This document shows, one piece after another, positions 22,485-39,736 of a stretch of 64,000 bases of DNA. Location: positions 1-64,000 of the forward strand of contig NZ_RJRZ01000018.1 of NCBI RefSeq assembly GCF_003993775.1, read 5' to 3'. The notes beneath the pieces are model-generated. The model saw only the letters and a list, made by a program, of their open reading frames with translations, had not been told where the DNA came from and did no database searches. The position numbers and the translations under genes are program-made. Source of the DNA: Frigidibacter oleivorans (GTDB lineage: Bacteria; Pseudomonadota; Alphaproteobacteria; Rhodobacterales; Rhodobacteraceae). Numbering within the stretch: position 1 is the first letter of the stretch; every line of letters begins with the position of its first letter.

Positions 22485-24302
<1,818 letters not shown>

Positions 24303-26810: not shown

Positions 26811-26858
26811 TGAAATGTTCCCGTTTTGATCGCATAAGTGCAAGAACAAGTGCGGAAC
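26811..26858 (+). promoter_or_regulatory. recA promoter with alphaproteobacterial LexA (SOS) box
   Basis: TTGAAA (26811-26816) and CATAAG (26833-26838) form a promoter with 16-base spacing. Just after it lies GAAC-AAGTGCG-GAAC (26844-26858), the complement of GTTC-N7-GTTC, the direct-repeat LexA box of alphaproteobacteria. It would cover the transcription start, giving simple LexA repression. The rest of the 344-base gap (26576-26919) shows no gene. Confidence 0.85.
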
Positions 26859-26919: not shown

Positions 26920-27990
26920 ATGGCAGTGGCGAACCTCTTTGACATGACCGACAAGCGCAACGCGGACAAGCAGAAGGCGCTCGACAGTGCGCTGGCCCAG
27001 ATCGAACGGCAGTTCGGCAAGGGCTCGATCATGAAGCTCGGGACCAACAACCCGGTGATGGAGATCGAGTCGACCTCGACCGGGTCGCTGGGGCTCGACA
27101 TCGCGCTCGGCATCGGCGGGTTGCCCAAGGGCCGGATCGTGGAAATTTACGGCCCGGAAAGCTCGGGCAAGACCACGCTGACCCTGCATGTCGTGGCCGA
27201 GGAGCAGAAGAAGGGCGGCGTCTGCGCCTTCGTCGATGCCGAACACGCGCTCGACCCGCAATATGCCCGGAAACTGGGCGTGAATCTGGACGAGCTGCTG
27301 ATCAGCCAGCCCGATACCGGCGAACAGGCGCTGGAAATCGTCGATACGCTGGTCCGCTCCGGCGCGGTCAGCCTGATCGTGGTGGACTCGGTCGCGGCGC
27401 TGACCCCGAAGGCAGAGCTTGAGGGCGACATGGGCGATGCCACGGTCGGCGCCCAGGCAAGGCTGATGAGCCAGGCGATGCGCAAGCTCACCGCCTCGAT
27501 CGGCCGGTCGAACTGCATGGTGATCTTCATCAACCAGATCCGCATGAAGATCGGGGTGATGTTCGGCTCTCCCGAAACCACCACCGGCGGCAACGCGCTG
27601 AAATTCTACGCCTCGGTCCGGCTCGACATCCGCCGGATCGGCTCGATCAAGGACCGGGACGAGGTCGTGGGCAACTCCACCCGCGTCAAGGTGGTCAAGA
27701 ACAAGGTCGCCCCGCCCTTCAAGCAGGTGGAATTCGACATCATGTATGGCGAGGGCATCTCGAAGACCGGCGAGATCGTCGATCTGGGCGTGAAGGCCGG
27801 CGTCGTGGAAAAATCGGGCGCCTGGTATTCCTATGGCGACGAGCGCATCGGCCAGGGCCGCGAGAATGCCAAGCAGTTCCTGAAGGACCATCCCGACGTC
27901 GCGCAGGCGATCGAGGACAAGGTCCGCGCCGGCCACGGGCTGGATCTGGCCGCGCCGATGACCGAGGATGGCGACGACCTGACCGAATAG
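26920..27990 (+). CDS. recA: Recombinase RecA
   Basis: RecA is the DNA-strand-exchange ATPase and SOS co-protease. The 356-residue sequence has the N-terminal [22 protein letters not shown], Walker A GPESSGKT (78-85), Walker [12 protein letters not shown], loop L1/L2 ([32 protein letters not shown]), and an acidic C-terminal tail ([10 protein letters not shown]). ATG 26920 gives the usual length; ATG 26944 is an alternative. An SOS box is upstream. Confidence 0.97.
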
Positions 27991-36901: not shown

Positions 36902-36970
36902 GGGGTGGGGGCGCCGCTAACGCAGGCGTGACCGGCGCCGGGGCGGGTTCGGCTTGACCTGCGTCGCCGG

Positions 36971-36985
36971 GAACATAAGAAGAAC
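36971..36985 (+). promoter_or_regulatory. LexA (SOS) box of the radical SAM-UdgX operon
   Basis: GAAC-ATAAGAA-GAAC is an exact GAAC-N7-GAAC direct repeat, the complement of GTTC-N7-GTTC, ending two bases before the ATG of the radical SAM gene. TTGACC (36954-36959) could be a -35 element. The same form of box stands in front of recA. This suggests LexA control of both repair genes. Confidence 0.75.
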
Positions 36986-36987
36986 AC

Positions 36988-38217
36988 ATGACCCGTCGCA
37001 CCCTGACCGAGAAACTGGCGATCCTCGCCGATGCCGCGAAATACGACGCCTCCTGCGCCTCGTCCGGCGGGCAGCGGCGCGACAGCCGCGACGGCAAGGG
37101 GCTGGGATCCTCCGGCGGCACCGGCATCTGCCACGCCTATGCGCCGGACGGGCGCTGCATCAGCCTGCTGAAGATCCTGCTGACCAATGTCTGCATCTAC
37201 GACTGCGCCTATTGCATCAACCGCGTGTCCTCGGGCGTGGAACGTGCGCGCTTCACGGTGGACGAGGTGGTGCGGCTGACGGTCGAATTCTACCGCCGCA
37301 ACTATATCGAGGGGCTGTTCCTGTCTTCGGGCATCGTCCGGTCGCCGGACGACACCATGTCGGAAATGGTCCGCATCGCCCGCACCCTGCGCGAGCGCGA
37401 GAATTTCCGCGGCTATATCCATCTGAAAACCATTCCCGATGCCGCGCCCGAACTGATCGAGGAGGCGGGGCTCTTGGCCGACCGGCTGTCGATCAATGTC
37501 GAGTTGCCGACCGACAGCGGCCTCGCCCGGCTTGCCCCCGAGAAAAGCCCCCGCACCATCCGCAAGGCGATGGCCGACGTCCGCCTGCGCCGGGAGGAAA
37601 GCCGCGAGCCCAGCCATACCGGCCGCCGCCCCGCCCGTTTCGCCCCTGCCGGGCAAAGCACGCAGATGATCGTCGGCGCCGATGCGGCCAGCGACGCGAC
37701 CATCCTCGGCCAGTCGGCCACGCTCTATTCCGGCTACGGGCTGAGCCGGGTCTACTATTCCGCCTTCTCGCCGATCCCCGATGCCTCGCGGCTGCTGCCG
37801 CCGGAACGGCCGCCGCTGCTGCGCGAACACCGGCTGTACCAGGCGGACTGGCTGATGCGGTTCTACGGGTTCGACGCGGCCGAGATCGCGCCCGAAGGGG
37901 GCATGCTGGACCTCGCGCTCGACCCCAAGACGGCCTGGGCGCTGGCGCATCGCGCGGCCTTTCCCGTCGATCCGAACCGCGCCCCGCGCGAGGTGCTGCT
38001 GCGCGTCCCCGGCTTCGGCACCCGCACGGTCGATCGCATCCTCGCCGCCCGCCGCCACCGCAGCCTGCGGTTCGAGGATCTGGCGGCGATGGGGGCGGTG
38101 ATGCGCCGCGCCCGCGCCTTCGTCACCCTGCCGGGCTGGAGCCCGCGCGGATTGCTGGAGGGCGAGGCGCTGAAGGCCCGGCTGATGCCCGCGCCGCAGC
38201 AGCTGAGCCTGTTCTGA
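36988..38217 (+). CDS. Radical SAM protein, putative DNA modification/repair family
   Basis: The 409-residue protein has the cluster motif CIYDCAYC (Cys69, 73, 76; CX3CX2C) in LTNVCIYDCAYCINRVSSG. Later come LFLSSGIVRSPDDTM, LIDEAG-like helices, and a helix-hairpin-helix near the C-terminus (PREVLLRVPGFGTRTVDRILAARR) that suggests DNA binding. It belongs to the family always found next to the UdgX-like partner in many bacteria, named as DNA modification/repair radical SAM without a proven reaction. The stop is one base from the next start. Confidence 0.9.
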   Translation: MTRRTLTEKLAILADAAKYDASCASSGGQRRDSRDGKGLGSSGGTGICHAYAPDGRCISLLKILLTNVCIYDCAYCINRVSSGVERARFTVDEVVRLTVEFYRRNYIEGLFLSSGIVRSPDDTMSEMVRIARTLRERENFRGYIHLKTIPDAAPELIEEAGLLADRLSINVELPTDSGLARLAPEKSPRTIRKAMADVRLRREESREPSHTGRRPARFAPAGQSTQMIVGADAASDATILGQSATLYSGYGLSRVYYSAFSPIPDASRLLPPERPPLLREHRLYQADWLMRFYGFDAAEIAPEGGMLDLALDPKTAWALAHRAAFPVDPNRAPREVLLRVPGFGTRTVDRILAARRHRSLRFEDLAAMGAVMRRARAFVTLPGWSPRGLLEGEALKARLMPAPQQLSLF

Positions 38218-38218
38218 G

Positions 38219-39736
38219 ATGCGCGAGATCGTCCTGCCCCGGGTCGGGTCGGTGGCGGAATGGCGGCGTCAGGTGCGCGGGTTGCTGGCGGCGGGCGTGC
38301 CCCCCGACCGGGTGATCTGGCGGATGGGGCAGGCCGCGCCGGACCTTTTCGCCGAGGCCGCGCCCCCGGACCTTGCAACCCCTGACGCCGGAAGCGCGCC
38401 CCCCGCGCCGCTGCGGCTGGGGCGCGAGGCGGTGGCGGTGCTCGAATCCGCCATGCACCATTCCGACCCGGACCGCTTCGCGCTCGGGCACGCGCTGGTG
38501 GCGCGGCTTGCGGCGGGGAGGCTGGTCTGGGGCGACCGCAGCGACCCGCCGATGCGCCGGCTTCTGGCGATGGACAAGGCGGTGCGCCGCGACGTGCACA
38601 AGATGCATGCCTTCGTCCGCTTTCGCGAACTGCCCGCCGATGGCCCCCGCCGCCGCTTCGCCGCCTGGTTCGAGCCGTCGCAGAACAGCCTCGAACCCGC
38701 CGCCCCCTTCTTCGCCCGCCGCTTCGGCGACATGGACTGGGTGATCGCCACGCCCGGCCTGACGGCGCGCTGCGTCGGGGGCACGCTCGACATCGGCGAG
38801 ACGCAGGCGCCACCGCCGCGCGGGATCGCCGCCGATCCGGGCGGGCGCGCCCCCCTGCCCGACCGGCCGCCCGCACCGGATGCCGCCGAAGACCTGTGGC
38901 GCACCTATTATGCCAGCATCTTCAACCCTGCCCGGCCGATGCCCAGGGCGATGCAGGCCGAGATGCCGAAGAAATACTGGAAGAACCTGCCCGAAGCCGC
39001 GCTGATCCCCGGCCTGTTGCGGCAGGCCGAGGACCGGTCCCGCGCGATGCGCAAGGCGCAGCCCCGCGACCCCAGCCCGCGGATCGAGGCCGCCATGCGC
39101 AACCGCCGCCTGCCCGAGCGCGACCTGCCCCCGGACGGCGCGGCGCCCGACCTCGACACGCTGGCCCGGCAGATCCGCACCTGCACCCGCTGCGCGCTGC
39201 ATTGCCACGCCACCCAGGCCGTCTGCGGCGAGGGCCCGCATGACGCCGAGATGTTGATCGTCGGCGAGCAGCCGGGCGATCAGGAAGACCTGCAGGGCCG
39301 GCCCTTCGTCGGCCCGGCGGGGCAGTTGTTCGACCGGATCGCCGGCGAGGCGGGGCTGGACCGGCGCCGGGTCTGGGTCACGAATGCGGTCAAGCATTTC
39401 AAGTTCACCCCGCGCGGCAAGCGGCGCATCCACCAGCGCCCCGACGCGGGCGAGGTGCAGGCCTGCAACTGGTGGCTGATGCAGGAGGTCCGCCTGATCC
39501 GGCCCCGGCTGATCGTGGCGATGGGGGCCACGGCGGCGCAGGCGCTGACCGGCGACGGGCGCGGCATCCTGAAGCGGCGCGGCGGACTGGAACGGCCAGA
39601 CGGAGGGGCGCCGGTGCTGGTGACGCTGCACCCCTCGGCGCTGCTGCGTCAGCCCGACCCGGCGGCGGCCGCGGCGCAGGAGGCGGGCTTTCGCGACGAT
39701 CTGGCCCGCGCCGCCGGATTTGTGGCCGCCGGCTGA
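38219..39736 (+). CDS. DUF4130-UdgX fusion: uracil-DNA-binding protein
   Basis: The 505-residue protein fuses a DUF4130 domain (about 70-210: HKMHAFVRFREL, FEPSQNSLEPAAPFF, FGDMDWVIATPGLTARC) with a family-4-like uracil-DNA glycosylase domain of the UdgX type (about 310-500). UdgX marks: GEQPGDQED (349-357), the special loop KRRIH (401-405) whose His405 is expected to form the covalent bond to DNA, and HPSALLR. Cys322, Cys325 and Cys416 are probable Fe-S ligands. In studied UdgX the enzyme stays covalently attached to the uracil site. The start follows the radical SAM stop at one base. Confidence 0.92.
   Translation: MREIVLPRVGSVAEWRRQVRGLLAAGVPPDRVIWRMGQAAPDLFAEAAPPDLATPDAGSAPPAPLRLGREAVAVLESAMHHSDPDRFALGHALVARLAAGRLVWGDRSDPPMRRLLAMDKAVRRDVHKMHAFVRFRELPADGPRRRFAAWFEPSQNSLEPAAPFFARRFGDMDWVIATPGLTARCVGGTLDIGETQAPPPRGIAADPGGRAPLPDRPPAPDAAEDLWRTYYASIFNPARPMPRAMQAEMPKKYWKNLPEAALIPGLLRQAEDRSRAMRKAQPRDPSPRIEAAMRNRRLPERDLPPDGAAPDLDTLARQIRTCTRCALHCHATQAVCGEGPHDAEMLIVGEQPGDQEDLQGRPFVGPAGQLFDRIAGEAGLDRRRVWVTNAVKHFKFTPRGKRRIHQRPDAGEVQACNWWLMQEVRLIRPRLIVAMGATAAQALTGDGRGILKRRGGLERPDGGAPVLVTLHPSALLRQPDPAAAAAQEAGFRDDLARAAGFVAAG

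Follow-up and report, generated by a model that had tools for sequence, protein, structure and literature searches.

A predicted LexA operator on the promoter of a radical SAM/DUF4130-UdgX operon in Frigidibacter oleivorans

The direct repeat GAACATAAGAAGAAC, found at positions 36971-36985 of the forward strand of the 64,000-nt stretch of Frigidibacter oleivorans DNA analysed here (the window), is very probably a functional LexA operator (probability about 0.94). It would place an operon encoding a radical SAM protein and a DUF4130-UdgX fusion in the SOS regulon. Control by LexA is judged almost certain because the site is found at the promoter both in F. oleivorans and in almost all of the relatives examined. 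The LexA operator of Alphaproteobacteria is a direct repeat, GAAC-N7-GAAC, which reads as GTTC-N7-GTTC on the opposite strand. The box matches this pattern exactly and, as a preliminary description of the window had reported, ends two nucleotides (AC, 36986-36987) before the ATG at 36988.

The same description had proposed that the site is a LexA box and that relatives should be compared, and the comparison strongly supports that proposal at the level of sequence conservation. Of 157 alphaproteobacterial loci pooled, 151 have an exact box no more than 200 bp ahead of the orthologous gene. The individual sets gave 21 of 22 loci in the family, 16 of 17 in the class, all 38 in a further group of alphaproteobacteria and 76 of 80 among named alphaproteobacterial genomes, totals that are not independent because the genome sets may share species. 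The named genomes span Roseobacter, Paracoccus, Rhizobium, Agrobacterium, Acetobacter, Brevundimonas, Caulobacter, Sphingopyxis, Bradyrhizobium and others. Among the exceptions, several carry boxes with one mismatch when inspected by eye, such as GAACATATCATGTAC (locus L026), GAACATTACCTGAAT (L159) and GAACAAAACGTGAAT (L176).

The operon and the place of UdgX

The first gene (36988-38217, forward strand) encodes a radical SAM protein of family TIGR03916 (rSAM_link_UDG, COG4277-type), matched at 580 bits against a cut-off of 343.5. Its CX3CX2C cluster motif (CIYDCAYC) contains the invariant cysteines 69, 73 and 76. The core of the predicted model is a radical SAM barrel, and HydE is among the closest solved folds in the matches listed, together with other general radical SAM barrels; spore photoproduct lyase is absent among the best 50 structural matches listed. 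The C-terminus is helix-hairpin-helix-like and weakly matches ComE operon protein 1 (E 0.005).

A single nucleotide separates the stop codon of this gene from the start of the second (38219-39736, forward strand), which encodes a 505-residue fusion protein. Residues 10-260 match TIGR03915 and residues 262-497 match TIGR03914, both above cut-off, and Pfam likewise assigns a DUF4130 and a UDG domain. The UdgX domain proper (TIGR03914; 39002-39709, forward strand) scores about 311.9-314 bits against a cut-off of 189.95 and matches solved UdgX structures, including the Mycobacterium protein, with an E value of 8e-47. UdgX enzymes are defined by the motif GEQPG, a KRRIH loop and HPS(S/A)(L/V)(L/V)R, and the histidine of the loop bonds covalently to the abasic site (PMC10359453). 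All three are present in the fusion: motif A as GEQPG (GEQPGDQED), motif B as HPSALLR, and the KRRIH loop at residues 401-405 (39419-39433, forward strand), where the alignment with solved UdgX runs residue for residue. The earlier annotation of a radical SAM-UdgX operon was thus correct, a TIGR03916 gene being followed by a UdgX that retains KRRIH and is fused to DUF4130. The UdgX of Mycobacterium smegmatis (PDB 6ail, 8iie) shares the UDG fold, GEQPG, the KRRIH loop and HPSxLLR; it differs from the present protein, which is fused to DUF4130 and whose gene shares an operon with that of a radical SAM protein. A role in anti-phage defence was also considered and set aside, as PADLOC returned no match for either the radical SAM or the fusion protein.

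The DUF4130 domain (38246-38998) has no relative of solved structure detectable by sequence at E 0.1. Its core is modelled with confidence, and the top structural rows for the model are RecJ, Cdc45 and PAP phosphatase, members of the DHH group, at a best Z of 7.9, which is below the trusted level of the tool; Foldseek gave a best E value of 0.009. The domain may possibly adopt a DHH phosphoesterase-like (RecJ/Cdc45) fold, an assignment to be read as a lead.

Five species, namely Acetobacter musti, an Asticcacaulis, two Niveispirillum and one Rhodospirillales genome (loci L173, L175, L176, L180 and L209), encode the radical SAM protein with a stand-alone DUF4130 and no UDG domain, and the box upstream is exact in four of these five loci and has one mismatch in the fifth. 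With the other two components retained where UDG is missing, the radical SAM-DUF4130 pair is probably the core of the SOS module and UdgX the add-on. Taken further, LexA would bind the box as proposed, the biology would be that of the pair, and UdgX would be an optional passenger in a system whose main job is not uracil handling. The UDG-less loci and their boxes make this a serious possibility, albeit one held at somewhat below even odds: within the family, the 20 genomes out of 100 that have TIGR03916 are exactly those with a UdgX above cut-off, so that every genome with the radical SAM gene also has UdgX, and both domains (DUF4130 and UDG) lie downstream in 74 of the 80 named loci.

Motif form and frequency across lineages

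The box changes form outside the Alphaproteobacteria. LexA of the E. coli type recognizes CTGT-N8-ACAG. Across 25 loci from other classes of Pseudomonadota, the direct repeat is found in none (300 bp upstream), CTGT-N8-ACAG in 18, and CTG-N10-CAG in 21, comprising those 18 and three more. A scan of 10.9 kb elsewhere in the same 25 loci returned no CTGT-N8-ACAG, and the motif occurs at none of the 38 further or 80 named alphaproteobacterial loci. This exchange bears on the idea that a regulator other than LexA, also binding direct repeats, uses 36971-36985. Such a regulator is highly improbable, since the form of the motif follows the LexA type of the lineage. In box-bearing genomes of the gamma/beta type, a CTGT-type box was also present at lexA in four of the seven checked, and genome G054, whose lexA box is of the GAAC type, has a near-match at the operon. 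Furthermore, the same motif stands before lexA, recA, uvrD and mmcB in the F. oleivorans genome: its lexA gene carries a box of its own, GAACGGTGTCAGAAC, 57 bp upstream of the matched start, and exact boxes precede uvrD (contig C33) and mmcB (C1), as well as a PA0069-family radical SAM gene (C36). The recA box, GAACAAGTGCGGAAC (26844-26858, forward strand), lies in the window, separated by 61 bp from the recA start codon (ATG) at 26920, and is an exact match in the same direct-repeat form, as had been noted before.

The presence of the box was also compared with that of LexA itself. Box-bearing genomes that were checked have a LexA above cut-off. Of the box-less genomes, G300 and G453 match LexA in its C-terminal peptidase part only, and the match in G716 falls below cut-off. 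The Xanthomonas-like genomes (f184; loci L111 and L123) carry the operon genes and encode a LexA whose own box has the form TTAG-N6-TACTA, and no box of that type was found at their operon loci. SOS control of the operon is therefore not universal, and appears from these sequences to be absent in f184.

The bare motif is short, and its frequency alone carries little weight. The window contains three exact copies of GAAC-N7-GAAC against 0.86 expected, and at least three were obtained in 4 of 100 shuffles, so the count is not significant; besides the operon and recA boxes, the third copy (at 22890) lies within long overlapping ORFs. The whole genome (4.05 Mb) holds 105 exact sites against 31 for a reversed control pattern, and the majority of the 105 are probably due to chance. 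Scored with a matrix built from the boxes of relatives, the N7 core of the operon box ranks second among the 99 genome sites listed, a rank favoured by the training of the matrix on boxes of the same operon. The high-scoring core and the conserved position together lift the operon box above chance. That the site is a meaningless occurrence, as the window and genome counts might suggest, has a negligible probability and is refuted by conservation in place, with about 0.005 boxes expected per upstream region of 270 bp (467 kb of DNA flanking the 80 named loci holds 8 exact sites) and with another LexA motif taking the place of the box in other classes.

Promoter architecture and proposed mode of control

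A profile of 119 non-redundant alphaproteobacterial loci aligned on the box reveals promoter-like signals around it. The consensus has TTG at positions -18 to -16 of the box (frequencies 0.61, 0.50 and 0.61) and, at a spacing of 17 bp, TATnAT over positions 5-10 of the box; no other conserved signal was present upstream of the box in this profile. In F. oleivorans, the predicted -35 element TTGACC (36954-36959, forward strand) has its TTG at -17 to -15 of the box. The putative -10 element TAAGAA (36976-36981, forward strand) lies inside the LexA box; it is a weak hexamer, predicted from its sequence and the profile of relatives, and its spacing from TTGACC is 16 bp versus 17 bp in the consensus. 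The AT-rich core of the box may also reflect a preference of LexA, which cannot explain a TTG placed at the proper distance from it.

Judged by the spacing from the -10 element, the transcription start is predicted at 36988 on the forward strand, the A of the start codon, give or take a base or two. A start 6-8 nt past the -10 element lands on the start codon, and the operon mRNA is thus probably leaderless. The most common gap between box and start codon in relatives is likewise 2 nt (59 of 127).

The control that we infer would run from LexA binding through induction and a leaderless start to the biochemical role of the products. LexA on the box would cover the -10 element together with the predicted start of transcription, and RNA polymerase is proposed to be unable to open the promoter as a result. 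Upon DNA damage, RecA filaments on single-stranded DNA would promote self-cleavage of LexA, and the leaderless mRNA would be made. The radical SAM protein and DUF4130 may then act on damaged DNA, while UdgX would remove uracil and covalently cap the resulting abasic site. A more specific combination of these elements is put forward as tentative and rather unlikely to hold in every part: an SOS-induced lesion pathway of its own kind, expressed as a leaderless mRNA from a promoter that has the LexA box as its -10 element, a pathway in which the radical SAM protein and DUF4130 (possibly with a RecJ/Cdc45-like fold) process the lesion, and an optional UdgX caps uracil or abasic sites in error-prone repair.

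Relation to known SOS systems and further boxes in the genome

For comparison with published work, we take COG4277 to be TIGR03916 and COG1573 to be the UDG part of the fusion. A link between this poorly understood UdgX pair and DNA damage through SOS control had been suggested in the preliminary description. The link itself is supported by the sequence evidence above; its novelty is not, as LexA control of a COG1573-COG4277 operon is published. This operon is reported to be SOS-regulated in Bacteroidetes (PMC8565304), and that paper cites earlier SOS reports in Verrucomicrobia and in Alphaproteobacteria (da Rocha 2008, Caulobacter). DUF4130 has also been noted alongside radical SAM and UDG in connection with SOS (PMC3765255). 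In light of the earlier COG1573-COG4277 reports, the regulation described here is a new instance of a known phenomenon. In both systems, a LexA or LexA-like operator controls a COG4277-type radical SAM gene and a UDG-superfamily gene, a control that is predicted here; the present one differs in its alphaproteobacterial direct repeat and in a UDG of the UdgX class, with KRRIH, fused to DUF4130.

The SOS papers describe COG1573-COG4277 only as a uracil-DNA glycosylase (base excision) repair system (PMC8565304). Two papers on the chemistry of UdgX call the role of the enzyme unknown or leave it undiscussed, and make no mention of SOS. No paper joining UdgX and LexA was found in the open-access literature. 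Nor did the open papers found state that the glycosylase is UdgX, or describe the promoter architecture, the operator switch or the UDG-less variants. Joining the two bodies of work suggests looking for the function of UdgX after DNA damage, alongside radical SAM and DUF4130, and genetically tractable Alphaproteobacteria, such as Caulobacter crescentus with its orthologue, are a place to seek it. SplB-like spore photoproduct lyases offer a second parallel: they too are radical SAM proteins tied to DNA repair and SOS, being SOS-controlled in several phyla (PMC8565304, PMC3765255), and they differ from the protein described here in sequence family (TIGR03916 here).

Several other exact boxes in the F. 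oleivorans genome merit mention in their own right. The box before the PA0069-family radical SAM gene (C36:69405, L065) directly precedes it, and a second radical SAM protein is thus probably under LexA. Two of the three top-scoring LexA boxes of the genome (C34:72643 and C35:117925; L062 and L063) lie 35 bp before paralogous 98-residue ORFs (MDSTT.ALPATP.QIAYA...), which have no match in Pfam or NCBIfam. A homologue in a sister species (L257) has the same box, and these ORFs possibly represent a new SOS gene. Two more exact GAAC-N7-GAAC sites (C37:8255 and C11:550392; L066 and L072) are located next to, or a short way ahead of, genes for DNA cytosine-5 methyltransferases.
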